DNA of 39,538 nucleotides, taken from assembly GCF_003003845.1 (NCBI RefSeq), contig NZ_PVWO01000003.1, positions 1 through 39,538 on the forward strand, in the 5' to 3' direction. The stretch is from Chamaesiphon polymorphus CCALA 037 (lineage in GTDB: Bacteria > Cyanobacteriota > Cyanobacteriia > Cyanobacteriales > Chamaesiphonaceae). Shown here in pieces: positions 1-29,200 of this stretch. The notes beneath the pieces were generated by a model. That model was not told the origin of the DNA, ran no database searches, and saw only the letters and a program-made list of their open reading frames with translations. The position numbers and the translations under genes are program-made. Each line of letters starts with the position of its first letter. Within the stretch, counting starts at the first letter, position 1.

Positions 1-171
1 AGATTGGCGGGAAGTGGTCGATATTTATCCGCTCTCGCCAATGCAGCAGGGGATGCTGTTCCACAGTCTTTATGCTCCCGATTCGGGGGTCTATCTGGAG
101 GTGTTCCACTGTACGTTGCAGGGTCATCTCGATCTCCCCACTTTTTGTCAAGCTTGGCAACAGGTTATCGA
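1..171 (+). repeat. Near-identical repeat of 38528-38698 (E-C linker and C-domain start)
   Basis: The first 171 nt align without gaps to 38528-38698 with about eight differences by eye. There is one identical run of roughly 50 nt and another of about 60 nt, far above the similarity of other C-domain starts here. Identity collapses just after GTTATCGAT. Confidence 0.85.
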
Positions 172-4585: not shown

Positions 4586-7500
4586 ATGAATACCGTCGAT
4601 CGAGCCAACCCCACCAACCCGAACAAAAACGTTGCTGCTATCTATCCACTGACACCGATGCAGCAGGGGATGTTATTTCATACCCTCTATACAGCGGGAT
4701 CGACTTTGTATTTCGAGCAGCTCTGCTGTACGTTACAGGGTGAATTGGATGAAGCAAAATTTGCCGCAGCTTGGCAACAGGTAGCCGATCGACATGCCGT
4801 ATTACGCACTGCTTTTCTGTGGGAAAAGATCGATAAACCGCTTCAGGTGGTGGGTAAGGTCGTTAATTTACCTTGGACTTATCACGATTGGCGATCGGAC
4901 AGTACGGACGCGCAACAAGCACAACTAGAGGCGTTTTTAACAGCCGATCGCCTTCAGGGCTTTAAGTTAAATCAAGCTCCGTTGATGCGATTTACGTCGA
5001 TCCGCGTAGCTGACGATCGCTATAAATTTGTCTGGAGTTACCATCATCTGTTAATTGATGGTTGGTCTTTACCCACGTTGATTCAAGAGGTGTTTGCTTA
5101 CTATGAAGCCGCGATCCAAGGTGAAACCCTGACCTTGGACTTGCCCCGCCCCTATCGAGACTACGTAGTGTGGCGCGAAAAACAAGATGTAGAAAGTGCC
5201 AATCGATTTTGGCAGCAATATCTACAGGGGATCGATACGCCTACCCCCGTGCCAATTCGCCTCAAGACTAGCGCACAGCAGCCAATTTATCAAACAATCG
5301 ATCGACAGCTCTCTGAGTCTACAACCGCCCAAATCCAAGAATTTGCTCGCCGCCACCAACTCACGCTTAATACCGTCTTCCAAGGCGTGTGGGGCTTGTT
5401 ACTGGCTCGTTATAGTGGTGAGAGCGAAGCCCTGTTTGGGGCTACTGTTTCTGGCAGACCGCCAGTACTGACTGGTGTGGAAACGATGGTGGGACTGTTC
5501 ATTAATGCCGTACCTGTCAGAATCGCTCTACCCGCACATACCCGCGTGCTGGAATGGCTACAGGGGATTCAACAGCAACAACTCGCAGCTCAGGCTTACG
5601 ACTACAGTTCGTTGGTGGATATTCAAGGGGTGAGTGAGGTACCGCGTGGCTTGTCTTTGTTTGACACGCTATTGGTATTTGAAAATTATCCGATTAGTGA
5701 ATCGCTGCAATCGCAACAGCTCAGTTTGGATGTATCGGATATTCATAGTTTCGAGCAAACCAATTATCCGTTAACCTTGGTGGCAATCCCGAGCGGACAA
5801 TTGACCCTCCAGGCAAATTATGATGCCAGCCAATTTGAGTACGCAGCGATCGAGCGACTGTTAGGACATTTCCAGCAGTTATTACTAGCAGTTGTGACGC
5901 ATCCCGACTGGGAGATCGAGCAGCTATCCTTGCTGACAGAAGCAGAGGTTGCCGAACTCCAGCAGTGGCAGCCACAACCGCAAGCCCCCAGCCAATTGTG
6001 TTTGCATCAAGCATTCGATCGCCAAGTCAGCTTAAATCCAGAGCGAATAGCCGTAGTCTGTGGCACCGAAAGCCTGAGCTATGCAGCCTTAAACCACCGC
6101 GCCAATCGACTCGCCCACTATCTGCAATCGCTGGGTGTTGCAGCCGAAACCTTGGTCGGCATCTACATGGAACGCTCGATCGATCTCATCGTCAGCACGC
6201 TGGCTATCGTCAAAGCTGGGGGGGCGTATGTTCCACTCGATCCGACTACTCCAGTCGCCCGACTGAGTTTGATGCTCGACGATACCCAATTACCGATTTT
6301 ACTCACTCAAGCTGACTTATTAGCACAGCTCCCCACTACTACCGCTACCACGATTTGTGTCGATCGCGATTGGCAACTGTGGGCGAGTGCCTCGGACAGT
6401 AATCCAACTCCAGCTATTACTCCCGCCAGCCTAGCTTATATCATCTACACCTCTGGTTCGACCGGAGTTCCCAAAGGGGTAATGATTCCCCATCAAGGGA
6501 TTACCCGCTTAGTGTTGGATACCAATTATGTCAGCTTAAACGCTAGCGATCGAATCGCTCAGGCGGCCAATACTGCCTTTGATGCCGCCACCTTTGAAAT
6601 TTGGGGAGCTTTGCTCAATGGTGCCCAGATCGTGATTATTCCGCGCTCGGTCTTGCTCGACCCTACCGAATTGGCGATGCTGCTCCAAGAGCAGGAAATT
6701 ACGGTCTTATTTTTGACTACAGCCCTCTTCAATCGGATGGCTAGCTTGGTTCCCACGGCTTTTGCTCGACTGCGCTGTTTACTGATGGGTGGGGAAGCGA
6801 TCGATCCGGTCTCTGTCCGAGCGATCCTAGCAACCGCTCCGCCGGAGCAGTTAATCCATGTTTATGGCCCGACAGAAAGCACTACTTTTACCAGTTGGTA
6901 TCGGATCTCGGACGTGCCTGCAACGGCGACTAATATTCCGATCGGTCGTCCGGTGGCACAGACTGAAATCTTGATTTTGGATCGGCAGTTACAGCAAGTG
7001 CCTGTCGGCATCCCAGGCGAACTACATATCGGTGGTAGTGGTTTGGCACGAGGCTATTGGCAGCGTCCAGAGTTAACGGCTGAAAAATTTATTCCCCATC
7101 CCTGGGGCGAACCAGGTGCTTTGCTCTACAAAACTGGCGACTTGGTGCGCTACTTACCCAGTGGCGAGATTGAATACCTCGATCGCATCGACCAACAGGT
7201 CAAGATTCGCGGGTTTCGGATCGAGCTTGGCGAAATTGAAGCCGTCCTCTCGCAGCATCCCGGCATTCTCCAAGTCTCCGTCCAAGCCCAGGCGATTGAG
7301 TCTGGAGCGAAACAACTTGTTGCTTATATTGTCTCGCGATCGAGTGCCGAACTTAGTCCGAGTGAGTTACGGCAGTTTTTGGCGACCCGCTTACCGGATT
7401 ATATGATTCCGGCGATGTTTATGCCGTTGAGTGCCTTACCCCTAACACCCAATGGCAAAGTCGATAAGCGATCGTTACCAGCACCCGATCGATCGCAGGC

Positions 7501-10500
7501 GATCGGGGCGAGCTATGTTGCCCCCCGCACCGAGCTGGAACAACAACTAGCGCAAATCTGGTCGGAGGTACTGGGGACGATCCAGATCGGTATTTTTAAT
7601 AGTTTCTTCGATTTGGGGGGTCATTCGCTGATCGCCACTCAGCTAATATCGCGGATTCGGCGGAACTGCCAAGTCGAGCTATCGCTCCAGACGCTGTTTA
7701 ACATGCCGACGATCGCCGAGCTGGCAACCGAGATCGAACGCGGTCGCACCCCTAGTTGTAACACGCTACCTTTAGTTTCGATCGATCGCGATCGCCTACT
7801 ACCGCTGTCTTTTGCCCAGCAACGGCTGTGGTTTTTGCAGCAACTAGATCCCCAGAGTACGGCTTACCATATTCCGATTGCCTTACGGCTGCAAGGGAAT
7901 TTAGATGTCAATGCCTTGCAACAGAGTTTACAGGCGATCGTCCAGCGACATGAGAGTTTGCGGACTAATTTTGCCTTAGATAGTAGCGGTCAGCCGTACC
8001 AATCGATGCGATCGACTGTAACAGTACCATTACCGACGATCGATGTCCGGCACTTAGGGGCAGCACCAGCAGCGGCGATCGCCGCCGCCACATCCAGCGT
8101 CAATGACACGATCTTTGACTTAACGACAGATTTATTGTTGCGCGCACAGCTCTTACAACTGGGTGCGGATGAATATTTACTATTGTTCTGCATCCATCAC
8201 ATCAGTGCTGATGGCTGGTCGATGGGCATTATCATCCGCGAACTGGTCGCGTTGTATACAGCGGCAATTGAGGGGCAAGCGGCCAGCTTACCAGAGTTAG
8301 CCATTCAGTATGCTGATTTTGCTCACTGGCAACGCCAACTACTTACGGGCGACTTGCGCCAACAGCAGCTCGCATATTGGCAACAACAACTCGCCAACTT
8401 AACACCGCTAGAACTGCCCACCGATCGCCCGCGTCCGGCAGTGCAAACCACGAGTGGGGCAACGCAGGAGTTTGCGCTGAGTGCCGAATTGAGTCGATCG
8501 CTGGTCAAACTCAGTCAGCAAACTGGGACTACTTTATTTATGACCCTGTTGGCGGCATTCCAGATCTTGCTCTCGCGCTATAGCGGGCAGATGGATATTG
8601 CCGTTGGCAGTCCGATCGCCAATCGCAACCGCGAAGAAATCGAACATCTAATTGGCTTTTTTGTCAATACCTTGGTGCTGCGTACCGATCTATCGGGATC
8701 GCCGACCTTCCGCGAGTTAGCGAACCGAGTGCGGCAGACGACACTGGCAGCCTACGAGCATCAAGATTTGCCATTTGAAATCATCGTCGAAGCCTTGCAA
8801 CCCGATCGCGATCTCAGCCATAGTCCGCTGTTTCAAGTGATGTTCGTCTTGCAAAATGCGCCCACGTCGGAGCTGAAGTTACCAGGTCTGAACTTGAGTG
8901 CGGTAGCGACTCCCACGACTATCGCTAAGTTCGATCTCACTTTGGCGATCGCCGAACCAGCCAACAGTGATGACGCGGCTAGCGGCTTAACAGGTGTGTG
9001 GGAATATAACACCGACTTGTTCGATCTGGCGACGATCGACCGGATGAGCGGTCATTTCGAGCAGCTCTTGAGCGCGATCGTCAACAATCCAGATGGTGCG
9101 ATTTGCCAGCTACAGCCGATCGCTCCCGCAGAGATAGCACAACTAGGCTTATTTAGTCAAGGTGTCGAGCAGTTTGTCGCGACCGATCGCTGCATTCACC
9201 AACTGATTGCCGATCGGGCGATCGCGCAACCCACCGCCATTGCTGTCGTCTGGGGCGATCTGCAATTAACCTATGCCGAACTAGATGCCCGATCCAACCA
9301 ATTAGCGCACTATCTGCAAGATGTGGGAGTCCGAGCGGAAACGGTGGTAGGCATTTGTGTCGAACGCTCGCTAGAATTAATCGTCGGTCTATTGGGGATT
9401 CTCAAGGCTGGGGGAGCTTATGTCCCGATCGATCCTAGTTATCCGGCGGCGCGGTTGGCTGCGATTTTGGCCGATACGCAAATGCCTGTGTTGTTAACTC
9501 AGGCATCTCTAGTCGCCCAGTTACCGGAGCATCAAGCCCAGGTTGTCTGTCTCGATCGGGACTGGGCGACAATTGCAACCAACACTAGCAATCCTTGTCC
9601 GAATCTGGTGACAGCCGCTCGACTAGCTTACATAGTCTATACTTCCGGTTCCACAGGTACGCCCAAGGGGGTGATGATTCCGCATCGGGGCTTACTCAAC
9701 TTGGTGGCATGGCACCACACCGCTTTTGCAGTCACCGCAGCCGATCGCGCCACTCAATTAGCGGGGATTGCTTTTGATGCGGCGGGGTGGGAGATTTGGC
9801 CTTATTTAGCTGCTGGAGCTACCTTACTACTGGTACCGCCTACAGCCATCCATCATCCCACTGAATTACGGGATTGGTTGCTCGATCGCCAAATCACCAT
9901 CAGCTTTGTCCCCACACCTGTTGCCGAACAACTCTTTCACTTAGACTGGCCGGATACCACTGCTCTACGGATGATGCTCGTAGGTGGCGATCGATTAGCG
10001 ACTAATCCAGCCACGCGGATGCCGTTTCAGGTCGTCAATAACTATGGGCCTACCGAAAATACGGTAGTAACCACTTCAGTGGTGCTCGATGACAGCAATC
10101 CCGACGCCGTACCGACGATCGGTCGCCCCATTGCCAATACGCAGGTGTATTGTTTAGACGATCGCGGGCAGCTTGCCCCGATTGGTATCCCCGGTGAATT
10201 ATGGATTGGCGGTGCGAGTCTAGCGCGAGGATATTTAAACCGCCCCGAATTGACTGCTGAAAAATTTGTGGCTCATCCGCAGGTGGACGGAGCAATCCTG
10301 TATCGCAGTGGCGATCGCGGTCGGTACTTGGCGGATGGTCAGATTGAATATTTAGGACGGCTCGATGAGCAGGTCAAAATTCGCGGTTTCCGAATCGAGC
10401 TGGGAGAAATTGAGACAGTCCTGAATCAACATCCAGAGCTATTTCAAGCGGTAGTGGTGGCGATCGATCGGGATGGACAGCAAAAGTTAGTTGCTTATAC

Positions 10501-13500
10501 CGTGCCAATGCCCGATGCTCAGACAACTTCCGAGCAACTGCGGCAGTTCTTGGGCGAACGGTTGCCAGACTACATGATTCCGGCTTATTTTGTCACGCTC
10601 GATGAGTTGCCCTTGACCCCCAATGGCAAGGTGGACAAACGCGCTTTGCCGCTGCCAGATCTGACTGCGGAGATGGGCAAAAACTACGTCGCCCCACGCA
10701 CCTCGATCGAAGCCCAGTTAGCAGCGATTTGGGCGCAAGTCTTGGGCACTCCCCAAGTGGGCATTCATGACAACTTTTTTGCGATCGGTGGCGACTCGAT
10801 TCTCAGCTTACAAATTATTGCCCGTGCTGCTCAAGCCGGAATCCAACTGACCCCCAAACAACTATTTGCCCATCAATCCATTGCCGAATTAGCCGCCGTA
10901 GCCCGCACCGGACAGGCGATCTCTGCCGAGCAAGGGGTCGTAGTTGGCGATGTGCCACTGACCCCGATTCAACGGTGGTATTTCGATCGAGACTTGCCCG
11001 CACCGCACCACTTCAACCAGACGGTCTTACTCCAAATCCCCGCCACAGTATCGGCGGATCTCCTCCAGCCGATCTTGACATCGATCTGGCAACACCATGA
11101 TGCCCTGCGTCTGCAATTCCAGTCGATCGATGGTGGTTGGCACCAAACCAATGCCGCGTTGACTGCCGTACCCCAACTGCAAGTGGTGGATTTGGGACAG
11201 CTCACTGGTACGGAACAAACCGATCGATTGACCGAAATTTGCGATCGATCGCAAGCCAGTCTAGATTTAGCGTCAGGTTGTCTGCTCCAAGCTACTCTAT
11301 TTGAGATGGGTGAGGGACAACCGCAGCGGCTATTACTAGTGGTGCATCACTTGGCCGTAGATGGCGTGTCTTGGCGGATTTTGCTCGATGATATTCAAAC
11401 AGCCTATCAACAGGTCAGTCAGGGTCAGAACATCAGCCTCCCAGCCAAAACCACCTCCTGGCGACAATGGGCGCAGCAGCTCGTTACCGCGAGTGGTGAT
11501 TTTATCCCCGAATTAGATTACTGGCACCGCCAGATTGCTTCAGTATCGCCAACATTGCCGACCGATCGGCAGGGCGAGAACACCGCTAGCTCGGCAGAAA
11601 CCGTGACTGTTTCGCTCGATGCCACAGCCACCCAAGATTTATTACAGCGCGTGCCAGCGGCTTACCGGACTCAAATTAATGATGTCTTAATTGCGGCACT
11701 CGCCCAGACGATGAGCGAGTGGACGGGCGAGTCCCAGATCCAGATCGACTTAGAAGGTCACGGGCGGGAAGAATTATTTGATGATGTGGATATCTCCCGC
11801 ACGGTGGGCTGGTTTACGACGATGTTCCCCATTTGTCTGGATCTCGCCCCCGATCGTCACCCCGGATCGTTACTCAAGAGCATAAAAAAACAATTACGTC
11901 AAGTCCCCCACAAAGGCATTGGGTATGGGTTGCTGCGCTACGTGCGCCGAGAACCCAGTCTCAGCAGCCATGTTGCCGCCCCGATTAGCTTTAATTATCT
12001 CGGTCAATTCGATGGAGTCTTGGCTGCCGAGAGCGATTTTGAAGTTGCTACGGAGTCAGCGGGGTCAGATATTAGCTTGCAAGGAGAACGCCGACATCTG
12101 CTCGACATCAATGGCGCGATCGTTGCGGGAGAATTACAACTAAATTGGACTTACAGCAGCAACATATACGATCGACAGACGATCGAGCGATTAGCGCAGA
12201 ACTTAATTGACAACTTAGCAGCCTCGATCGCCCATTGTCTGGAACCAACGGCTGGAGGCTACACGCCGTCGGACTTTGCGCTGGCGCGGCTCTCCCAAAC
12301 TGACCTAGATCGGTTGGTGGGTGACAACTGGCGACAGATTGCCGATATTTATCCCCTCTCGCCGCTGCAACAGGGGTTACTGTTCCATAGCTTATATGCG
12401 CCCGAATCGGGAGTGTATATGGTGCAAGTCCACTGTATGTTAAAGGGCAATCTCAACTGTGAGATTTTTGGGAAAGCTTGGCAACAGGCGATCGATCGCT
12501 ATGAAATTTTGCGGACTGGCTTTATCCATGCCGAATTAGCCACGCCGCTCCAATGCGTGTTCGATCGAGTGCCACTAATCTTACACCAGCACGATTGGCA
12601 AGCCAAAGATTTAGTAACTCAACAGGTCGATCTCGATCGACTATTAGAGCGAGAACGCCAGCAAGATTTCGACCTCGCGCGTCCGCCACTGATGCGGCTG
12701 CAAGTGATTCAACTCGCAGCGGATACATATAAATTTGTCTGGACTCACCATCACTTATTACTAGATGGTTGGTCTTTACCATTGGTATTTAAGGAAGTAT
12801 TTGCCGCCTACCATGCTTACGAACGGGGTCAATTGCAACCCCTCGCCCCAGCCACCCCTTACCGGAACTATATTGCTTGGTTACAAACCCAAGACTCGAC
12901 CGCCGCTCGATCTTTCTGGCAAGCCCAATTGCGGGATATTACCGATCCTACGCCGCTGCTGGCTCCCACCGATCGATCGCAATTAGATTCGGGCTACCAG
13001 GTGGCACGATCGCGATTGCCCCTAGCCGTAACAACGACAATCCAACAGTTTGCCCGTCAGCATCAATTGACGATGAGCAACCTGATCCAAGGTGCTTGGG
13101 CACTGTTGCTGAGTCACTATAGTGGTAATGCCGATGTGGTGTTTGGCGTAACTGTGTCGGGCAGACCCGCCACCTTGCCTGGAGTTGAGGAAATCGTCGG
13201 GCCATTTATTAATACTCTGCCCGTTCGAGTGGCGATTCCGTTCGATGCACCGATCTTGCCGTGGTTACAAGCTCTCCAACACCAACAGCAAGAGATCGAT
13301 CGATATGCTTACACCCCCCTGAACGACATTCAAGGTTGGAGCGAGGTTGCCCGTGGGGTGCCCTTATTTGAGAGCATCGTCGTCTTTGAGAATTACCCAG
13401 TTGGTGAGGCTGTCAGCGAACCCCACGCTAACGATCTCCAAATTATTGAGGTGCAAAGTTGGGAGCAAACCAACTATCCCCTGACCTTAATTGCTAGCCC

Positions 13501-16500
13501 CGGTGCGGAGTTAGCCTTGGACATTAGTTTCGATCGCAGTCGGTTTACCCCAGATAGCATCGACCGGATGCTGGAGCACTTACAAGCATTGCTGGCTGGC
13601 ATGGTCGTCGATGGCGATCGATCGATCGAGAGTATCCCGTTGTTATCCACACCAGAACGCCAGCAATTGCTAGAGGTGTGGCACCAAACCCACGCTGACT
13701 ATCCTCAAGATCGGTGCATTCATCAGTTATTCGAGCAGCAAGTAGAGCGCACGCCAGAGGCGATCGCGATCGTCTTTGAAGATCGGTGTTTGACTTACCA
13801 AGACTTAGATCGGTGCGCCAATCGACTGGCACACTATCTCCAATCTCAAGGTGTGGGAGCGGAAACACTCGTCGGGATTTGTGTCGAGCGGTCTGAGGCG
13901 ATGGCGATCGCGATTTTAGCGATTCTCAAAGCGGGCGGTGCTTATGTGCCGATCGATCCCCTGTATCCACGCGATCGCATTGCTTATGTGCTGGCAGACT
14001 CTGGGCTGAGACTCTTGCTCTCCCAAACTTCACTAGCCGAGAATTGGTTGGATCTGGGCGTAACAGTTGTGTGTGTCGATGGCGATGCCGATCGGTGGCA
14101 GCAGCTCCCTGTCACAAATCTGATTAGTTCGGCAACAGCTACGAATTTAGCTTATATCATCTATACATCAGGTTCGACCGGACAACCCAAAGGCGTGGAA
14201 ATCCAGCACCGCAGTGTCATCAATCTGCTCTGGGCGATAATCCGTCAGCTCGAACTGAGTGCCACAGATACGTTGCTAGCGGTAGCGACATTTTCCTTCG
14301 ATATTTCCGTGGCGGAGCTGTTTTTACCGCTGCTCGTCGGTGCCAAGTTGGCGATCGTCAGTCGCGATGTCGCCGCCGATGGCTACCAACTGTTACAGGC
14401 GATCGATCGGTATCAGCCGACATTCATGCAGCCCACCCCCACTACCTGGCGGATGTTATTAGCCGCAGGTTGGCAGGGTAGTCCGAACTTAAAAATGGTG
14501 AGTACGGGTGAGGCACTTCCTGCCGATTTGATGCAGCAACTACTCCCGCTGGGCAAAGAGCTGTGGAACTTATACGGGCCGACCGAAACGACTATCTGGT
14601 CTACTGGTTATCGAATCACATCCCCACGAGCACCGATTACGATTGGTTATCCGATCGCCAATACTCAAATTTACATTCTAAATGCTCGTCGTCAGCTCGT
14701 CCCGATCGGCGTCCCAGGCGAACTCTACATTGGTGGTGCGGGTCTGGCACGGGGCTATTGGCAGCGATCGGAGCTGACTGCCGACAAGTTTATCGACTCT
14801 CCTTTTAGTACCGCAGGGGAGCGTTTATACCGAACAGGGGACTTGGCGCGGTATTTACTGACTGGGGAAGTAGAATACCTCGGACGGATCGACCAACAGG
14901 TGAAGATTCGCGGCTACCGGATTGAGTTGGGAGAAATTGAAGCCGTCCTCTCTCAGCATCCAGACATATCTCAGACTGTGGTGGTGGCTCACAGCCCAGA
15001 GTCTCGATCGCCACAATTGATCGCCTATGTCGTACCTAGTGCAAATGCCCAACCCACGGCGGAGGAATTGCGCGAATTCCTGGTAGAGCGGCTGCCAGCC
15101 TACACGATCCCCAGTATGTTTGTTACCTTGGCTGAATTGCCGCTCACGCCCAATGGCAAGATCGATAAACGGGCATTGCCGCACCCCGATCGCGGGGAAC
15201 TAACCAATAACGCTTATGCAGCCCCACGCACCACGCTAGAAAGTCAACTAACCGCCATCTGGGCAGAAGTTCTGGGTCTATCTCAGGTAGGCATCCACGA
15301 TAACTTCTTCGCGATCGGTGGAGATTCGATTCTGAGTTTACAAATCGTCGCGCGTGCTGGTCGATCGGGGATTCAACTGACACCCAAACAACTATTCGCT
15401 CGCCCCTCGATCGCCGAACTGGCGCAAGTAGCGAGTACGGGACAAGCCATTGCCGCAGAGCAAGGCATTGTAACTGGATCGGTACCTCTCACGCCGATTC
15501 AACACTGGTTTTTTGCACAAAACTTGCCAGAGCCGCAACATTTTAACCAATCTGTGCTATTGGAAGTACCAACAGATTTATCAGCGGACTTACTCCAACA
15601 AGTCTTGACAGCGATCTGGCAGCATCACGACGCGCTCCGCTTGCAATTTGTGGCGACAGGTGGCAGTTGGCAGCAAACTAATGCCGACTGGAGTGCGCCG
15701 CCGCAGCTTCAAACAATCGATTTAGCGGATTTATCCGGTCAGCAACAAGTCGATCGGTTAACAGAAATTTGCAGTCAAGCTCAAGCCAGTTTGGATCTCG
15801 CCGCTGGTTGTTTACTGCGATCGACATTATTCCAGATGGGTGCCGGAGTGCCCCAACGCCTGCTGATTGCCATCCATCACTTAGCTGTAGATGGCGTGTC
15901 TTGGCGGATTTTATTAGAAGATCTCCAAACTGCTTACCACCAACTGACTCAGGGCACAACGATCTCTTTCCCTGCGAAGACGACGGCTTGGCAATATTGG
16001 GCACAGCGGCTGACAGCAGTTGCTGGCGCGCTCGATGCGGAGTTGGATTACTGGCAAGCTCAGGTCAGTCAGCCACTGACACTGCTCCCGACGGACGCTC
16101 GCGGGGAAAATACGATCGGCTCTGGGGCTACTGTGACGGTTTCTCTCAGTGCGACGGCGACTCAAGACCTGCTCAAGCGCGTACCCGCAATTTATCGCAC
16201 GCAGATTAATGATGTGTTGATAGCCGCCCTAGCCCAAACGATCGGGGAGTGGACGGGTGAGTCGAGTCTGTACTTGCATTTGGAAGGCCACGGACGGGAA
16301 GAACTATTTGACGATGTGGATATTTCTCGCACTGTGGGCTGGTTTACGACGATGTTTCCCGTGTCGCTGCATTGGTCTGAGGGCGATGGAGAGGGAACAT
16401 TGCTCAAGAAGATTAAAGAACAACTGCGACGGGTGCCTAATAAAGGCATCGGCTATGGAGTCCTCCGCTATCTACAACAATCGCATAGCCTCGCCGATCG

Positions 16501-19500
16501 CCCCACGCCAGCGATTAGCTTTAACTATCTAGGTCAATTCGATCGCACCCTCAGTGCTGAAAGCGATTTCCAACTAGCCAGCGAGTCGGCGGGGGCTGAG
16601 AGTAATAGTCAGGGTCATCGCCAGCATTTGCTAGATATCAGTGGCTCGATCGTCGGCGGTCAACTACATTTGAGCTGGAATTATAGTAGCAATCTCCACC
16701 AGCCCGAAACGATCGAACGATTGGCGCACCGTCTGTTACATCATTTAACCGCCACGATCGACCATTGCTTGGAACCTACCGCAGGTGGTTACACCCCCTC
16801 AGACTTCCCCCTCGCTCAGTTATCGCAACCAGAACTCGATCGAATTGTCGATAACGATTGGCGATCGGTAGTCGATATTTATCCGCTCTCACCGATGCAG
16901 CAAGGGATGTTGTTCCACAGTCTCTACGCACCAGAATCTGGCGTTTATGTAGAGTTGGTGCAGTGTACATTGCAGGGCAATCTGAATATCGATGTATTTT
17001 GTCAAGCTTGGCAACGGGTCATCGATCGCTATGATATTCTCCGAACCAGCTTCATCTGGTCGGATTTAACCGCCCCTGTGCAAGTCGTGCGCCAACAAGC
17101 CACTTTACCTTTCACCTATTCCGACTATCGCGACGCGGATCCCCAGCAGCAACAGCAACACATCGTTGCCGCGATCGAACGCGAAAAACAGGGATTTGAG
17201 TGGTCGCAACCACCCCTGATGCGGTTGCACTTAATGCAATTATCAGCACATACCTATGAATTTCTCTGGAGTAGCCATCACATCTTATTAGATGGTTGGT
17301 CGCTGCCATTGGTATTTAAGGAGGTACTAGCCGCTTATCAGGTCTACGAACGGGGCGAAACCATTGAGGTGATGCCACCAGCTAATTCATATCGGAGCTA
17401 TATTGCGTGGTTGCAGGCTCAGGACATGGGTGCCGCTAAAGTCTTTTGGCAACAGCAGCTTGAGGGAATTGCTGCGCCGACACCATTAATCGCGCCGACC
17501 GATCGATCGGCATTGACTAGCGGCTCCTACATCGCACGGTTACAGCTACCACCAGAGACGACGGCTACACTCCAACAATTTGTCCGCCAGCACCAACTGA
17601 CGATGAGCAACCTCATCCAAGGAGCTTGGGCATTGCTGCTCGGTCGCTATAGTGACGAACGGGATGTGGTATTTGGGGTGACGGTTTCGGGACGACCAGC
17701 AGCTTTGGCTGGTGTCGAAGAGATCGTCGGTCTGTTTATTAACACGCTGCCGCTGCGAGTGGCAATTACCGACGAGATCGAGGTCTTGCCGTGGCTGCAA
17801 ACCCTGCAAGCGCAACAACAAGAGATCGATCGCTATGCTTATACGCCATTAGTCGAAATTCAAGGTTGGAGCGAGATTCCGGCAGGAGCCGCGCTGTTTG
17901 AAAGCATTGTGGTGTTTGAAAATTACCCGCTCGGTGAGGCTGTCCAATCGCCGCCGAGTGCTGATGATTTGCAAATCATTAATGTGCGGAATTTGCAACA
18001 GACTAACTTTCCACTCACCCTGATTGCGATTCCTGGTAACGAGCTAGCGATCGAAATCCGATCGGATTGTAGTCGCTTTACCACGGAGACGATCGATCGA
18101 ATGCTCGGACATTTCCACCATCTGCTGCTCGAAATTACGACCGCTCCCAACCGATCGCTCGATCGATTAACGCTAATATCTGCCGCCGAACGAGCGCAAT
18201 TGACCGAGTGGCAACAAGTTAGCGGCTACGATCCCACCGAACTCTGCATCCCCGCACTGTTCGAGCGACAGGTGTTATTGAGTCCCGACGCGATCGCTGT
18301 AGTTAGCGGTGAGCAGACCATCACCTATGCCGAATTGAACGCTCGTGCCGATCGATTAGCCTCCCAACTTCAGTCGCTCGGCGTGCAGTCTGAGGGGCTG
18401 GTGGGCATCTGTATGGAGCGGTCGATCGAGGCGATCGTCAGTGTCGTGGCGATCCTCAAAGCGGGTGGTGCTTACGTGCCCCTCGACCCCACCTATCCGC
18501 CAGAACGACTGGCTTATATGTTGGCAGATACCCAACTAGCCGTGCTGCTCACACAGGTGGAATTACTCGATCGCTTACCGCCCACTACCGCTCAGACGAT
18601 TTGTATCGATCGCGATTGGGAACAGATCGCCAGTCATCCCCCCTTTAATTACCCCAGCCCAACGATTTCCCCCACCGACTTAGCTTATGTAATTTACACA
18701 TCGGGTTCCACCGGACAACCCAAGGGCGTAATGATTCCGCATCAAGGGATTACCCGCCTAGTGCTGAATACCAACTATATTCAATTCTCGGCACTCGATC
18801 GGGTGGCACATGCTGCCAATACCGCCTTTGATGCCGCCACCTTTGAAATTTGGGGAGCCTTACTCAATGGGGCGCAACTCACGATCGTGCCGCAGACGGT
18901 GCTGTTATCGCCACCAGACTTAATTGCACTGTTGACCGATCGCCAGATTAGCGTGTTGTTCCTGACTCCAGCCCTATTCGATCGATTGGCCAGCATCGCA
19001 CCGACAGCCTTTGGTAAGCTCCGCTATCTGATTATGGGTGGGGAAGCCCTCGACCCTCATTGGGTGCGCGTGGTGCAAGCTGCTGGCGCGCCGCAGCACT
19101 TACTCAATGGCTATGGCCCGACCGAGAGTACGACCTTTGCCACCTATTATGAAGTGACCGAGCTAAGTCCCACGGTCACGAATATTCCCATCGGTCGTCC
19201 CCTAGCACACACCGAGATCTCGATCTTAGATCGGTATCTCCAACCCGTCCCGATTGGGGTACCTGGCGAGCTGCATATTGGGGGAGCGGGCTTGGCACGA
19301 GGATATTGGCAACGTCCAGAGCTGACAGCCGAGAAGTTTATCCCACATCCCTGTAGCGATCGACCGGACAGTCGCTTGTATAAAACTGGCGATCTGGTGC
19401 GCTACTTACCTAGTGGCGATATTGAATACCTCGATCGCATCGATGGACAAGTCAAAATTCGGGGGTTCCGTATTGAAATTGGTGAAATTGAAGCGGTTCT

Positions 19501-20104
19501 GATTCAACACCCCCACATTCGTCAAGCGGTAGTCGTAGTTACCACCACGGAGCAAGGGCAAAAACAACTAATCGCTTATGGGGTGACAGATCCCACCACG
19601 GAGTTATCAAATAGCGATGTCCGTCAATTTTTGTCAACACGTCTTCCGGCTTACATGATTCCCTTGGTGTTTGTCACCTTGGCTGAATTACCGTTAACGC
19701 CCAATGGCAAGGTCGATAAACGGGCTTTACCGACCCCCGATCTCACAGCACTGCTGGTCACTGAATATGTGGCTCCAGCAACCGAGCTGGAAGTAGAACT
19801 GGCAGAAATTTGGGCGAACTTATTGAACCTCAAGCAGGTGGGTACGACCGACAATTTCTTTGAGGTGGGCGGTCATTCCCTACTGGCAACCCAATTTATT
19901 TCGCGAGTCCATCAACACTATCAAGTCACGCTCCCCCTGCATAGCTTCTTTATGCAGCCGACGATTCGCGATACTGCTCGACTTATTCTGGAATCTCAAC
20001 TGAGCAATGTGGATGATGATGATGATTTTCTAGCTCGCACCCTAGCGGAGCTTGATGATTTGTCAGATGAAGATGTGCGGCAACTCCTAGCGCAAGACGA
20101 CTAA
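4586..20104 (+). CDS. NRPS-B: four-module nonribosomal peptide synthetase, C-A-T / C-A-T-E / C-A-T-E / C-A-T
   Basis: This complete 5172-aa synthetase starts at ATG 4586, 60 nt after NRPS-A. A weak A-rich stretch precedes the start and no strong Shine-Dalgarno is visible. The short N-terminus (about 15 residues) runs directly into a D-accepting C domain, matching the E-terminated NRPS-A. Fourteen domains follow: C-A-T (4631-7735), C-A-T-E (7780-12250), C-A-T-E (12335-16790) and C-A-T (16870-19990). All four C domains keep HHxxxDG. The four carrier serines are at 7625, 10796, 15326 and 19877, with GGDS before E domains and GGHS where no E follows. Pocket codes suggest Ile/Val, Leu, an unassigned residue and Val. 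The second and third residues should be converted to D. The C-terminus has no TE and ends in a strongly acidic tail that probably docks to NRPS-C, 34 nt downstream. The protein therefore extends the chain by four residues without releasing it. Confidence 0.98.
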   Translation: MNTVDRANPTNPNKNVAAIYPLTPMQQGMLFHTLYTAGSTLYFEQLCCTLQGELDEAKFAAAWQQVADRHAVLRTAFLWEKIDKPLQVVGKVVNLPWTYHDWRSDSTDAQQAQLEAFLTADRLQGFKLNQAPLMRFTSIRVADDRYKFVWSYHHLLIDGWSLPTLIQEVFAYYEAAIQGETLTLDLPRPYRDYVVWREKQDVESANRFWQQYLQGIDTPTPVPIRLKTSAQQPIYQTIDRQLSESTTAQIQEFARRHQLTLNTVFQGVWGLLLARYSGESEALFGATVSGRPPVLTGVETMVGLFINAVPVRIALPAHTRVLEWLQGIQQQQLAAQAYDYSSLVDIQGVSEVPRGLSLFDTLLVFENYPISESLQSQQLSLDVSDIHSFEQTNYPLTLVAIPSGQLTLQANYDASQFEYAAIERLLGHFQQLLLAVVTHPDWEIEQLSLLTEAEVAELQQWQPQPQAPSQLCLHQAFDRQVSLNPERIAVVCGTESLSYAALNHRANRLAHYLQSLGVAAETLVGIYMERSIDLIVSTLAIVKAGGAYVPLDPTTPVARLSLMLDDTQLPILLTQADLLAQLPTTTATTICVDRDWQLWASASDSNPTPAITPASLAYIIYTSGSTGVPKGVMIPHQGITRLVLDTNYVSLNASDRIAQAANTAFDAATFEIWGALLNGAQIVIIPRSVLLDPTELAMLLQEQEITVLFLTTALFNRMASLVPTAFARLRCLLMGGEAIDPVSVRAILATAPPEQLIHVYGPTESTTFTSWYRISDVPATATNIPIGRPVAQTEILILDRQLQQVPVGIPGELHIGGSGLARGYWQRPELTAEKFIPHPWGEPGALLYKTGDLVRYLPSGEIEYLDRIDQQVKIRGFRIELGEIEAVLSQHPGILQVSVQAQAIESGAKQLVAYIVSRSSAELSPSELRQFLATRLPDYMIPAMFMPLSALPLTPNGKVDKRSLPAPDRSQAIGASYVAPRTELEQQLAQIWSEVLGTIQIGIFNSFFDLGGHSLIATQLISRIRRNCQVELSLQTLFNMPTIAELATEIERGRTPSCNTLPLVSIDRDRLLPLSFAQQRLWFLQQLDPQSTAYHIPIALRLQGNLDVNALQQSLQAIVQRHESLRTNFALDSSGQPYQSMRSTVTVPLPTIDVRHLGAAPAAAIAAATSSVNDTIFDLTTDLLLRAQLLQLGADEYLLLFCIHHISADGWSMGIIIRELVALYTAAIEGQAASLPELAIQYADFAHWQRQLLTGDLRQQQLAYWQQQLANLTPLELPTDRPRPAVQTTSGATQEFALSAELSRSLVKLSQQTGTTLFMTLLAAFQILLSRYSGQMDIAVGSPIANRNREEIEHLIGFFVNTLVLRTDLSGSPTFRELANRVRQTTLAAYEHQDLPFEIIVEALQPDRDLSHSPLFQVMFVLQNAPTSELKLPGLNLSAVATPTTIAKFDLTLAIAEPANSDDAASGLTGVWEYNTDLFDLATIDRMSGHFEQLLSAIVNNPDGAICQLQPIAPAEIAQLGLFSQGVEQFVATDRCIHQLIADRAIAQPTAIAVVWGDLQLTYAELDARSNQLAHYLQDVGVRAETVVGICVERSLELIVGLLGILKAGGAYVPIDPSYPAARLAAILADTQMPVLLTQASLVAQLPEHQAQVVCLDRDWATIATNTSNPCPNLVTAARLAYIVYTSGSTGTPKGVMIPHRGLLNLVAWHHTAFAVTAADRATQLAGIAFDAAGWEIWPYLAAGATLLLVPPTAIHHPTELRDWLLDRQITISFVPTPVAEQLFHLDWPDTTALRMMLVGGDRLATNPATRMPFQVVNNYGPTENTVVTTSVVLDDSNPDAVPTIGRPIANTQVYCLDDRGQLAPIGIPGELWIGGASLARGYLNRPELTAEKFVAHPQVDGAILYRSGDRGRYLADGQIEYLGRLDEQVKIRGFRIELGEIETVLNQHPELFQAVVVAIDRDGQQKLVAYTVPMPDAQTTSEQLRQFLGERLPDYMIPAYFVTLDELPLTPNGKVDKRALPLPDLTAEMGKNYVAPRTSIEAQLAAIWAQVLGTPQVGIHDNFFAIGGDSILSLQIIARAAQAGIQLTPKQLFAHQSIAELAAVARTGQAISAEQGVVVGDVPLTPIQRWYFDRDLPAPHHFNQTVLLQIPATVSADLLQPILTSIWQHHDALRLQFQSIDGGWHQTNAALTAVPQLQVVDLGQLTGTEQTDRLTEICDRSQASLDLASGCLLQATLFEMGEGQPQRLLLVVHHLAVDGVSWRILLDDIQTAYQQVSQGQNISLPAKTTSWRQWAQQLVTASGDFIPELDYWHRQIASVSPTLPTDRQGENTASSAETVTVSLDATATQDLLQRVPAAYRTQINDVLIAALAQTMSEWTGESQIQIDLEGHGREELFDDVDISRTVGWFTTMFPICLDLAPDRHPGSLLKSIKKQLRQVPHKGIGYGLLRYVRREPSLSSHVAAPISFNYLGQFDGVLAAESDFEVATESAGSDISLQGERRHLLDINGAIVAGELQLNWTYSSNIYDRQTIERLAQNLIDNLAASIAHCLEPTAGGYTPSDFALARLSQTDLDRLVGDNWRQIADIYPLSPLQQGLLFHSLYAPESGVYMVQVHCMLKGNLNCEIFGKAWQQAIDRYEILRTGFIHAELATPLQCVFDRVPLILHQHDWQAKDLVTQQVDLDRLLERERQQDFDLARPPLMRLQVIQLAADTYKFVWTHHHLLLDGWSLPLVFKEVFAAYHAYERGQLQPLAPATPYRNYIAWLQTQDSTAARSFWQAQLRDITDPTPLLAPTDRSQLDSGYQVARSRLPLAVTTTIQQFARQHQLTMSNLIQGAWALLLSHYSGNADVVFGVTVSGRPATLPGVEEIVGPFINTLPVRVAIPFDAPILPWLQALQHQQQEIDRYAYTPLNDIQGWSEVARGVPLFESIVVFENYPVGEAVSEPHANDLQIIEVQSWEQTNYPLTLIASPGAELALDISFDRSRFTPDSIDRMLEHLQALLAGMVVDGDRSIESIPLLSTPERQQLLEVWHQTHADYPQDRCIHQLFEQQVERTPEAIAIVFEDRCLTYQDLDRCANRLAHYLQSQGVGAETLVGICVERSEAMAIAILAILKAGGAYVPIDPLYPRDRIAYVLADSGLRLLLSQTSLAENWLDLGVTVVCVDGDADRWQQLPVTNLISSATATNLAYIIYTSGSTGQPKGVEIQHRSVINLLWAIIRQLELSATDTLLAVATFSFDISVAELFLPLLVGAKLAIVSRDVAADGYQLLQAIDRYQPTFMQPTPTTWRMLLAAGWQGSPNLKMVSTGEALPADLMQQLLPLGKELWNLYGPTETTIWSTGYRITSPRAPITIGYPIANTQIYILNARRQLVPIGVPGELYIGGAGLARGYWQRSELTADKFIDSPFSTAGERLYRTGDLARYLLTGEVEYLGRIDQQVKIRGYRIELGEIEAVLSQHPDISQTVVVAHSPESRSPQLIAYVVPSANAQPTAEELREFLVERLPAYTIPSMFVTLAELPLTPNGKIDKRALPHPDRGELTNNAYAAPRTTLESQLTAIWAEVLGLSQVGIHDNFFAIGGDSILSLQIVARAGRSGIQLTPKQLFARPSIAELAQVASTGQAIAAEQGIVTGSVPLTPIQHWFFAQNLPEPQHFNQSVLLEVPTDLSADLLQQVLTAIWQHHDALRLQFVATGGSWQQTNADWSAPPQLQTIDLADLSGQQQVDRLTEICSQAQASLDLAAGCLLRSTLFQMGAGVPQRLLIAIHHLAVDGVSWRILLEDLQTAYHQLTQGTTISFPAKTTAWQYWAQRLTAVAGALDAELDYWQAQVSQPLTLLPTDARGENTIGSGATVTVSLSATATQDLLKRVPAIYRTQINDVLIAALAQTIGEWTGESSLYLHLEGHGREELFDDVDISRTVGWFTTMFPVSLHWSEGDGEGTLLKKIKEQLRRVPNKGIGYGVLRYLQQSHSLADRPTPAISFNYLGQFDRTLSAESDFQLASESAGAESNSQGHRQHLLDISGSIVGGQLHLSWNYSSNLHQPETIERLAHRLLHHLTATIDHCLEPTAGGYTPSDFPLAQLSQPELDRIVDNDWRSVVDIYPLSPMQQGMLFHSLYAPESGVYVELVQCTLQGNLNIDVFCQAWQRVIDRYDILRTSFIWSDLTAPVQVVRQQATLPFTYSDYRDADPQQQQQHIVAAIEREKQGFEWSQPPLMRLHLMQLSAHTYEFLWSSHHILLDGWSLPLVFKEVLAAYQVYERGETIEVMPPANSYRSYIAWLQAQDMGAAKVFWQQQLEGIAAPTPLIAPTDRSALTSGSYIARLQLPPETTATLQQFVRQHQLTMSNLIQGAWALLLGRYSDERDVVFGVTVSGRPAALAGVEEIVGLFINTLPLRVAITDEIEVLPWLQTLQAQQQEIDRYAYTPLVEIQGWSEIPAGAALFESIVVFENYPLGEAVQSPPSADDLQIINVRNLQQTNFPLTLIAIPGNELAIEIRSDCSRFTTETIDRMLGHFHHLLLEITTAPNRSLDRLTLISAAERAQLTEWQQVSGYDPTELCIPALFERQVLLSPDAIAVVSGEQTITYAELNARADRLASQLQSLGVQSEGLVGICMERSIEAIVSVVAILKAGGAYVPLDPTYPPERLAYMLADTQLAVLLTQVELLDRLPPTTAQTICIDRDWEQIASHPPFNYPSPTISPTDLAYVIYTSGSTGQPKGVMIPHQGITRLVLNTNYIQFSALDRVAHAANTAFDAATFEIWGALLNGAQLTIVPQTVLLSPPDLIALLTDRQISVLFLTPALFDRLASIAPTAFGKLRYLIMGGEALDPHWVRVVQAAGAPQHLLNGYGPTESTTFATYYEVTELSPTVTNIPIGRPLAHTEISILDRYLQPVPIGVPGELHIGGAGLARGYWQRPELTAEKFIPHPCSDRPDSRLYKTGDLVRYLPSGDIEYLDRIDGQVKIRGFRIEIGEIEAVLIQHPHIRQAVVVVTTTEQGQKQLIAYGVTDPTTELSNSDVRQFLSTRLPAYMIPLVFVTLAELPLTPNGKVDKRALPTPDLTALLVTEYVAPATELEVELAEIWANLLNLKQVGTTDNFFEVGGHSLLATQFISRVHQHYQVTLPLHSFFMQPTIRDTARLILESQLSNVDDDDDFLARTLAELDDLSDEDVRQLLAQDD
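4631..7735 (+). other. NRPS-B module 1: C(D-accepting)-A-T, no E
   Basis: C begins AAIYPLTPMQQGMLFHTLY, the same style as C domains after E, in line with E-terminated NRPS-A. HHLLIDG is at 5042-5062. The T domain has GGHSLIATQL (serine 7625-7627), the carrier type seen when no E follows. The residue should stay L. Confidence 0.92.
5990..7480 (+). other. Adenylation domain, NRPS-B module 1: pocket DAFFLGVTFK, probably Ile (or Val)
   Basis: Read from FDAATFEIW (Asp codon 6581), VLFLTTALF, CLLMGGEA and HVYGPTESTTF: D-A-F-F-L-G-V-T-F plus Lys. This belongs to the branched aliphatic family of codes (Val/Ile). Large parts of this domain align without gaps to the first A domain of NRPS-C at a constant offset of 15,649 nt, but the specificity segment differs between the two. 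Confidence 0.65.
7780..12250 (+). other. NRPS-B module 2: C(LCL)-A-T-E
   Basis: C begins LPLSFAQQRLWFLQQLDP, the LCL style, fitting an upstream module without E; HHISADG is at 8195-8215. The T serine is at 10796-10798 in GGDSILSL. E shows HHLAVDGVSW at 11345-11374, EGHGREELF and TVGWFTTMFP. Spacing of C, T and E motifs matches NRPS-C module 1 almost exactly (offsets 12,472 and 12,478 nt for C and T), suggesting a shared origin. Confidence 0.93.
9200..10660 (+). other. Adenylation domain, NRPS-B module 2: pocket DAWFLGNVVK, leucine
   Basis: Read from FDAAGWEIW (Asp codon 9776), ISFVPTPV, MMLVGGDR and NNYGPTENTVV: D-A-W-F-L-G-N-V-V plus Lys. This is the well-known Leu code. With the following E domain the residue delivered should be D-Leu. 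Confidence 0.87.
12335..16790 (+). other. NRPS-B module 3: C(D-accepting)-A-T-E
   Basis: C begins ADIYPLSPLQQGLLFHSLY and has HHLLLDG at 12749-12769. The T serine is at 15326-15328 (GGDS). E has HHLAVDGVSW at 15875-15904 and intact later motifs. The C domain is a close relative of the C domain of NRPS-C module 2 (offset 12,481 nt), although the A domains that follow are of different lineages. Confidence 0.92.
13710..15190 (+). other. Adenylation domain, NRPS-B module 3: pocket DIAQVTLIWK, substrate unassigned
   Basis: Read from FDISVAELF (Asp codon 14300), FMQPTPTTW, MVSTGEAL and NLYGPTETTIW: D-I-A-Q-V-T-L-I-W plus Lys. The frame of this code (D-I-x-Q-x-x-L-I-W) recalls Gly-type codes such as DILQLGLIWK, but Ala at position 239 and Thr at 301 replace the usual Leu and Gly. 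The active E domain that follows would be pointless with achiral glycine. I therefore leave the substrate open; a small or polar residue is possible. The core motifs for catalysis are intact. Confidence 0.7.
16870..19990 (+). other. NRPS-B module 4: C(D-accepting)-A-T, no E
   Basis: C begins VDIYPLSPMQQGMLFHSLY, as expected after the E domain of module 3, with HHILLDG at 17276-17296. T shows GGHSLLATQF (serine 19877-19879), the non-epimerising carrier type. The residue stays L, and the next C domain (NRPS-C) is LCL type, so the assignment is consistent across the protein boundary. Confidence 0.92.
18240..19740 (+). other. Adenylation domain, NRPS-B module 4: pocket DAFFIGGTFK, probably valine
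   Basis: Read from FDAATFEIW (Asp codon 18830), VLFLTPALF, YLIMGGEAL and NGYGPTESTTF: D-A-F-F-I-G-G-T-F plus Lys, one step from the Val code DAFWIGGTFK. The segment ~19020-19160, which holds pocket residues 299 to 331, is nearly identical at protein level to the matching segment in the first A domain of NRPS-C. Confidence 0.72.
20000..20104 (+). other. Acidic C-terminal tail of NRPS-B, putative docking region
   Basis: The last 32 residues hold 13 Asp/Glu and only two Arg, including five consecutive Asp and a predicted amphipathic stretch LSDEDVRQLLAQDD. NRPS-C begins with a basic stretch 34 nt downstream. An acidic-to-basic docking interaction is a reasonable inference, not shown by the sequence. 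Confidence 0.5.
20012..20026 (+). repeat. (GAT)5 coding trinucleotide run
   Basis: Five tandem GAT codons encode Asp-Asp-Asp-Asp-Asp just before the C-terminal helix of NRPS-B. Gain or loss of units would keep the frame and only change the acidity of the tail. Confidence 0.9.
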
Positions 20105-26200: not shown

Positions 26201-29200
26201 TTTCGATCGTCTGTTTGTGCAGCAAGTCCAGCAGCAGCCCCAGGCGATCGCCTTGATTTGTGATGACCGCCAGTTAACCTATGCCGCCTTAGAAGAACAG
26301 GTAGAACGGTTGGCTGGGCACCTGTACCAATCGGGCGTTCGCGCTCATACCGTCGTCGGTCTGTGCGTGAATCGATCGATCGAGATGGCGATCGGGTTGC
26401 TAGCAATTTGGCGATCGGGTGGGGTTTATCTCCCCCTCGACCCCGAATACCCGCTCGCCCGCTTACAGTTTATGGTGAATGATGCTGGTGTCTCGGTATT
26501 AGTCGGACATCGCGATTGTTTGACTGCTGAGTTGACGAGCGATCTACCCTGTCTGTACCTAGAGGAGCTGCTGACAACGCCGCTAGCTGTTGAAGTCGCA
26601 CTACCGCAAATTGCCACAACCGATCCAGCCTATCTGTTGTACACATCCGGTTCCACAGGGCAACCGAAAGGGGTATCAGTCGATCGCCAAACGCTCTTGG
26701 CTCACTGTTGCGGCATGGCCGAATATTATCAATTGCAGCCGCACGATCGAGTGCTTCAGTTTGCATCCCTCAACTTCGACCCTTCCTTAGAACAGTTGTT
26801 GCCTGCCCTAATCGCCGGAGCTGGTGTCGTATTGCGCGGCGGCTCGGTCTGGTCGGCGGCAGAATTACTCGCCCAGTTGCAAGACCACAGCGTGACTGTA
26901 GCTAACTTGCCGACTGCTTACTGGCGACAAGTGACGACCGCTTGGCAACATCTAGGAGTATCCTTGCCCAGCCAACTGCGGCTGACGATCGTCGGTGGCG
27001 AAGCTTTGCTGGTTTCGGACTTGGCTCCGTGGCAGTCGCTCCAGCATCCAGCCGCTCCAGCACCTACATTAATCAATGCCTATGGGCCAACCGAAGCCAC
27101 AATTACGGCTCTAACCTTTGTCGTGCCCGATGATTTCGCTGGCGATCGGTTACCGATCGGTCGTCCGTTACCCAATCGGCGGGCTTATATCCTCGATCCG
27201 ATCGGTCGGATCTGTCCGACTGGGGTACCAGGTGAATTGCATTTAGGGGGCGCGGGGCTGGCGCGCGGCTATTATCGCCAGTCCGCTCTCACGGCGGAGA
27301 AGTTTGTCAGCGACCCGTTCCAGGATGGCTCCCCAGCGCGGATGTATCGTACTGGCGATCTCGCCCGTTATTTACCAAATGGGGACATTGAATATTTGGG
27401 ACGGCTCGATCGACAGGTAAAGATTCGCGGTTTTCGGGTAGAACTAGCTGAGATTGCGACAGTACTCAGCCGCCATCCCGCCATCCAAGATACCACCGTC
27501 CAGGTTTATACTCCAGCGAGCGGTCAGCAACGGCTGGTGGTCTACTATGCCAGCTACCCCACCGCGATCTCTGTCTCAGAAGCCGAACTCCAGCAATTTT
27601 TGGCAACCAGTCTCCCAGAGTACATGGTGCCCAGTCTATTTGTCCGGCTCGATCGGTTGCCCTTAACCCCTAGTGGCAAGATCGATCGTCAAGCCTTACC
27701 CGATCCCCTATTGATGTCTGAAGCCACCGCTGCGATCGTCTTACCGACTACGCCGACAGAAATTGCCTTAGCGGAGATTTGGCAAGAGGTGCTCGGACTG
27801 CCGCAAGTGAGCGCGAATGACAACTTCTTTGCGATCGGTGGCGACTCGATTCTGAGCTTGCAAATTATCGCTCGGGCCAATCAAGCCGGGATGAAATTAA
27901 CCCTCAAAGAACTCTTCGCTCATCCTTCGATCGGCGATTTAGCGACAGTTGTCAGTTTCGGTGCAGCGGTGCCAGCCGAACAGGGGATCGTGACTGGTGC
28001 CGTACCGCTAACGCCCATTCAAGCCTGGTTCTTTGCCCAACCGCTGCCAGACCGACATCATTACAATCAGACGCTCCTCCTCGTCGTCCCCGCAGACTTA
28101 TCTGCAACCTTACTCCAGCAGGTATTGACCGAAATCGTCCGCCATCATGATGCTCTCCGGTTACAGTTTATTGCCACCGATCGCGGCTGGGAGCAGCAGC
28201 ACGCGCCTCTGAGTGACTTACCCCAACTCCAGATCGTCGATTTGAGTGAATTGACGGGGGTAGCGCAAACTGACAGATTGACCGAAATTTGCAGCCAGCA
28301 CCAAGCCAGTCTGGATTTAGCAGCGGGTTGTCTTCTCCACGCCACGCTGTTTGAGATGGGCGCGGGACAACCGCAGCGATTGTTACTAGCCATTCATCAC
28401 TTAGCGGTGGATGGGGTGTCGTGGCGGATTTTGTTGGCCGATCTTCAGACGGCTTATCAGCAGCTCAGTCAGGGTGAGGCGATCGCGCTCCCTGCGAAAA
28501 CCACGTCGTGGCAACAGTGGGCGCAGCAACTCACCGCCGGAGCCAGTGACTTTATGGCGGAGCTAGACTACTGGCAAGCTCAAGCCCAACAGCAATCGAC
28601 CTTACTACCATCCGATCGAACTGGTGAAAATTCAGTCAGCTCTACCGAGACTGTCTCGATGTCACTCTCAGCCGAGATGACTCAAGATTTACTCCAGCGC
28701 GTACCCGCAATTTATCGCACCCAGATCGACGATTTACTCTTGGCTGCGCTGACTCAAACTATCGGTGCCTGGGCTGGCACAGCGACCGTGCAGATCGACT
28801 TAGAAGGACACGGACGAGAAGAACTATTTACCGATGTGAATATTTCCCGCACCGTTGGCTGGTTCACGACGATGTTTCCGATTTATCTGACCTTGCCAGC
28901 GAATCATCGGCCAGCGTCGATCCTCAAGAGCATAAAAGAACAATTACGTCAAGTCCCCCACAAAGGGATCGGCTATGGACTGCTGCGCTATATCTGCCAA
29001 GAACTCAGGGAGATCGAGCGAGATGCCGCACCGATTAGCTTTAACTATCTGGGGCAGTTCGATCGCACCTTAGAGGATGAGAGTGATTTTCAACTAGCCG
29101 AAGAATCCGCTGGAGCGGAGCGGAGCGATCGCGGCGAGCGTCAGCACGACTTAGATGTGAGTGGTTTAATTGCTGGTGGCCGCTTGCAGATGAGCTGGAG

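Follow-up and report, generated by a model that had tools for sequence, protein, structure and literature searches.

Module 4 of a cyanobacterial NRPS: a glycine-lineage A-domain core with Ala239 and Thr301 ahead of an intact E domain

The A domain of module 4 (A4) of the synthetase described here carries the code DIAQVTLIWK, whose frame is that of glycine activators, and is followed by an E domain, which would find nothing to invert on glycine. Which residue, then, does this module load? The window, i.e. the whole stretch of DNA that was analysed, is one entire contig (C501, 39.5 kb) of a cyanobacterial genome of 6.09 Mb and encodes NRPS throughout, in three ORFs; module 4 lies inside the ORF at 4586-20104, which contains no stop.

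Architecture and epimerisation context of module 4

Module 4 is encoded on the + strand and opens with a C domain of the after-E class (12341..13672; PF00668; after-E clade 100%), which accepts D-Leu from module 3. This is followed by A4 (13685..15210; PF00501, PF13193), by a T domain whose motif GGDS was read from the ORF translation at 15317..15328, and by an E domain (15476..16807). The module reaches beyond the 13710-16790 of the original prediction, as it includes its own C domain.

The E domain had been described as complete, and this holds: motifs E1 (PLTPIQHWF), E2 (HHLAVDGVSW), E4 (LEGHGRE), E5 (SRTVGWFT), E6 (PNKGIGYG) and E7 (FNYLGQF) are all present with the catalytic motifs intact, and the domain matches the solved E domains of PvdL, TycA, GrsA and TycB. 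In addition, the carrier motif reads GGDS in all seven E-bearing modules of the window and GGHS in both modules without an E domain. In a tree of the window C and E domains, the C domains that follow an E domain (7/7) form one clade (SH-aLRT 100), and the two that follow a T domain form a separate one (99). The C domain downstream of module 4 (16874..18205, + strand), which belongs to module 5 (Val), is a member of the after-E clade, in agreement with its earlier description as D-accepting. Taken together, the complete E motifs, the GGDS motif and the after-E class of the next C domain indicate that module 4 is a coherent C-A-T-E unit built to pass on a D-residue.

Aligned with PheA, the nine A domains of the window show the codes DAWLVGAVVK-E, DAFFLGVTFK and DAWFLGNVVK-E (modules 1-3), DIAQVTLIWK-E, DAFFIGGTFK and DAFFIGGTFK-E (modules 4-6), and DPENIGAITK-E, DPEDIGAITK-E and DFWNIGMVHK-E (modules 7-9), where -E denotes an E-bearing module; one more C domain follows module 9. 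Several of these codes we take, by code tables, to read Ile, Leu, Val, Val and Thr, and on that reading the position of module 4 is between D-Leu and Val, in a predicted peptide that is strikingly D-rich.

Three further features of the contig deserve mention. The first C domain (window 20-1324) falls in the after-E clade of the C tree, so the absent upstream module probably ends in an E domain as well, in which case D-residues would occupy most positions of the peptide. The A1 code DAWLVGAVVK (window 1817-2230) is unusual, since the pocket is sister (99%) to a Phe-type DAWTIAAVCK domain of the same genome and is without the Phe residues at 278, 301 and 331. A7 and A8 (window 26643-31680), which lie in tandem, both have Glu239 and are relatives of DAEDIGSIV domains of Lys-like type; the A8 code DPEDIGAITK occurs again on contigs C421 and C692, where the segments are identical and may be part of one and the same cluster or of repeats of it.

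The A4 pocket and its relatives

Alignment of A4 with GrsA PheA assigned the ten code positions as D235, I236, A239, Q278, V299, T301, L322, I330, W331 and K517. Specifically, the motif FDISVAE provides D235 (14300-14302), I236 (14303-14305) and A239 (14312-14314) within 14300..14314; Q278, conserved together with W331 in glycine-type pockets, lies at 14429..14431; KMVSTGEAL (14498..14506) holds V299 (14498-14500) and T301 (14504-14506); NLYGPTETTIW (14570..14599) holds L322 (14570-14572), I330 (14594-14596) and W331 (14597-14599); and K517 is found in NGKID (15158-15160). The code as originally read, with Ala239 and with Thr301 in MVSTGEAL, is thus exact.

With canonical Gly A domains (DILQLG[L/M/V]IWK; DhbF, 5U89; AB3403, 4ZXH), A4 has D235, I236, Q278, L322, I330, W331 and K517 in common, and it differs from them by Ala in place of Leu239, Val in place of Leu299 and Thr in place of Gly301. 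The closest solved pockets are 4ZXH and 5U89, the substrate of both being glycine, and in DhbF the counterpart of W331 occludes the pocket and bonds the counterpart of Q278 (PMC11253843). An AlphaFold2 model of A4, built from a five-row alignment only, reached a pLDDT of 48.7 and was set aside.

The glycine-like frame noted earlier proved to be a matter of descent. In the pocket tree, 13 Thr301 rows make up a clade of their own (98%) that sits among the 33 rows of the glycine clade (99%), so that A4 belongs to the glycine clade by its pocket, although the Gly301 and Leu239 of the canonical code DI(L/V)QxGxxW are absent. The Thr301 clade stands apart from the Ser, Cys, Dab, Thr and other lineages. 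Assignment of A4 to a Ser/Cys type (DVWHxSLID, DLYNLSLIW) was rejected, as Ser and Cys rows fall in separate clades outside the glycine clade; an origin of Thr301 from Ser/Cys or Dab domains is ruled out by the same tree.

Among glycine-frame pockets, 121 keep both Leu239 and Gly301, 16 have neither, and 2 and 4 carry one change only (121:2:4:16; p about 1e-15, calculated ignoring shared ancestry). Because the loss of Leu239 and the replacement of Gly301 go together, their joint loss reads as a repacking of the pocket. Other bulky residues at 301 also occur in glycine-lineage pockets (L061:7001, DILQVIAVW; L017:10292, DILQFVAIW), both with Leu239 kept and Ala322. A Thr301 code of another kind, DAHIVTHVVK, of proline-like lineage, is present elsewhere in the same genome (L163:5341).

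A scan for Thr301 codes over genome contigs and 1056 whole genomes brought up some 20 more pockets that fit DI[S/A/C/P]Q[I/V]TLIW, a few of them with DV; carriers of the subclade, about 20 of the 1056 genomes, include several Nostoc relatives and one Verrucomicrobium. A second copy is found in the same genome (locus L111, contig C563, DISQVTLIWK), its pocket being 72% identical to that of A4. The code of A4 therefore recurs as a supported class in other genomes, which is more than chance. Relatives with DI[S/C/P]Q[I/V]TLIW, such as L111 and L113 of Nostoc UHCC 0926, share with A4 not only Thr301 but also FMQPT and M[I/V]STGEALP. Those examined are short single-module C-A-T, C-A-NMT-T, A-T-TE or A-NMT-T-R proteins, whereas a multimodular C-A-T-E setting was seen only in the window copy; searching further families added only more single-module Thr301 proteins, and plasmid records gave matches of <60% identity only. 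A full-text search of open-licence papers for DIAQVTLIWK and its variants found none that prints the code, which subscription papers may do.

Many of the Thr301 relatives adjoin a Val A-T protein, a KS-AT-ACP-aminotransferase and a cupin protein. An uncharacterised cyanobacterial cluster of this kind recurs at L111, L112, L113, L114, L155, L157 and L159, with Val A-T, KS-AT-ACP-aminotransferase, a cupin_8 protein and an acyltransferase or TIGR04325 methyltransferase, then C-A(Thr301)-(NMT)-T and a terminal C-A-T-TE. In the terminal module the A domain is degenerate, with a broken A3 motif (L111:7002-11468; L112:3454-7788, where Asn replaces D235), or absent, leaving C-T-TE (L157:1392-4034), which suggests that the last module of this cluster is non-loading.

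A mosaic A domain

Block identities along A4 are in conflict. Between about 14130 and 14810 the mean identity of the pocket is 67.5% to the Thr301 clade versus 33% to the other window domains, and in the T domain it is 66% to the window domains versus 43% to the Thr301 clade. From about 14950 onwards, Asub and T (14951..15410, + strand) are closest to the modules of the window itself, indicating same-synthetase descent, and the E domain is paired with its module 3 counterpart. In the Asub+T tree A4 groups with the window modules (98%), and holding it with the Thr301 clade costs 37.5 log-likelihood units (AU p 0.029, a single test on a quick tree). By Thr301, by the small residue at 239 and by monophyly, the core of A4 belongs in the Thr301 subclade, but the A domain as a whole does not. 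The segment concerned extends from A3 to A6 (14129..14810, + strand, edges approximate; block identities and tree, 98%), carries 9/10 code residues and is a member of the Thr301 glycine-type subclade.

The D-residue modules 1, 3, 6, 7, 8 and 9 of the same synthetase have Asub, T (GGDS), E and next C domains of the same descent as those of module 4, while their A cores, unlike that of module 4, are of Phe, Leu, Val, basic and Thr lineages. The conflicting block identities and the two trees together argue that a Thr301-type core is exchanged into a pre-existing D-residue module. Among the sequences compared there is no close donor of this core, the best reaching 72% amino-acid identity, and a recent foreign insert is unsupported by base composition (GC 0.48-0.56 throughout module 4); the exchange is therefore not demonstrably recent.

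Candidate substrates of module 4

Putting these data together, we lean towards the view that A4 selects a small chiral residue, which is epimerised to the D-form. According to this proposal, a glycine-lineage core, repacked by Leu239 to Ala and Gly301 to Thr with Gln278 and Trp331 kept, would have entered by subdomain exchange a module whose Asub, T and E domains are native to the synthetase. A4 would then activate a small chiral L-amino acid, likeliest L-Ala; the E domain, presumably active given its intact motifs, would epimerise the residue on the T domain; and the D-accepting C domain would join the D-residue with Val. The net result would be the addition of a very small D-residue between D-Leu and Val. 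Ala is the most likely single substrate, a choice that we hold tentatively and short of even confidence, with Ser or 2-aminobutyrate next in rank.

We infer both the activity of the E domain and the small, chiral nature of the substrate. With Q278 and W331 kept, and with the changes at 239 and 301 co-occurring as though one compensated in volume for the other, the pocket would suit a very small ordinary residue, Ala for instance, better than it would a large or exotic one, which leaves the earlier suggestion of an unusual substrate unsupported. Counting against Ala, a canonical Ala code (DLFNNALTY, L036) already exists in cyanobacteria, and a second one would be redundant.

Activation of glycine, with the E domain left over from the module that received the core and having nothing to invert, appears unlikely. 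The core is of glycine lineage in the pocket tree and retains Q278 and W331. Moreover, a known system comes close to this situation: module 2 of the linear gramicidin synthetase LgrA, aligned as DIANLCIIYK, activates Gly (PMC11253843) and is followed by an E domain described as inactive (PMC8150014). LgrA module 2 resembles A4 in Ile236, Ala239, a bulky residue at 301, an aromatic residue at 331 and an E domain downstream, but differs from it by N278 and Y331, by low pocket similarity (profile 37 bits, best domain) and by an inactive E domain where that of module 4 has intact motifs. The bulky Cys near C-alpha in AlmE likewise enforces glycine, and in AlmE and DltA a Cys near position ~301, placed there by match coordinates and not by structure superposition, is reported to exclude larger L-residues (PMC11253843). 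By analogy, such a bulky residue at ~301 would count against a small chiral substrate and favours Gly. Furthermore, if the graft were recent, the module 4 E domain could be an unneeded leftover.

Against glycine stand the fully intact E domain and the GGDS motif of module 4. Only 1/58 Gly modules with readable downstream sequence in our sample is followed by an E domain, and that one (L080, from 9884; DILQLGMIWK; a Bacillota MAG) has lost its catalytic motifs, with HYLPLDMQSW for HHxxxDxxSW and LLAHGRE for LEGHGRE. From two E domains only, those of L080 and LgrA, it seems that E domains behind glycine modules decay, and the intact state of the module 4 E domain favours a chiral residue. The original reading was right that the core precedes an intact E domain and a D-accepting C domain, but its statement that glycine would make no sense is too strong in view of LgrA module 2, which activates Gly ahead of an E domain.

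That the Thr301 clade is specific for a small residue which is polar or non-proteinogenic (such as 2-aminobutyrate, homoserine, diaminopropionate or a beta-substituted alanine) seems to us more doubtful still. On this reading, the clade would have a distinct specificity for a small non-proteinogenic residue, used in L- or N-methyl form in the PKS-aminotransferase clusters and, after grafting, as a D-form here. This would agree with a consistent private code in a cyanobacterial cluster family with PKS-aminotransferase and cupin genes, with the lack of an assigned code in the open literature, and with the presence of Thr301 in DIWELTADD domains, which we take to be Dab-type. However, the code of A4 is free of charged residues, the pocket remains occupied by Trp331, and the window, all of it NRPS, showed no gene for a precursor.

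Direct loading of D-Ala, as by DltA, is very improbable: DltA is among the A4 pocket matches, and near 301 maps its Cys269, which is described as clashing with L-Ala (PMC11253843), but an intact E domain would be redundant, and neither Ile236 nor glycine ancestry lends specific support.

In conclusion, A4 belongs to a code class that is well delimited and recurs across taxa, and for which the open literature covered here prints no assignment. It exemplifies natural repacking of a pocket within the glycine lineage, as well as a graft confined to the core, in which the recipient module kept its own Asub, T and E domains. Should the substrate be Ala, predictors that assign DIxQxxLIW to Gly would misread the Thr301 clade; should it be Gly, the intactness of the E domain behind a glycine A domain would be puzzling. 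These comparisons also suggest that the state of the E domain can be used as a check on predicted glycine.
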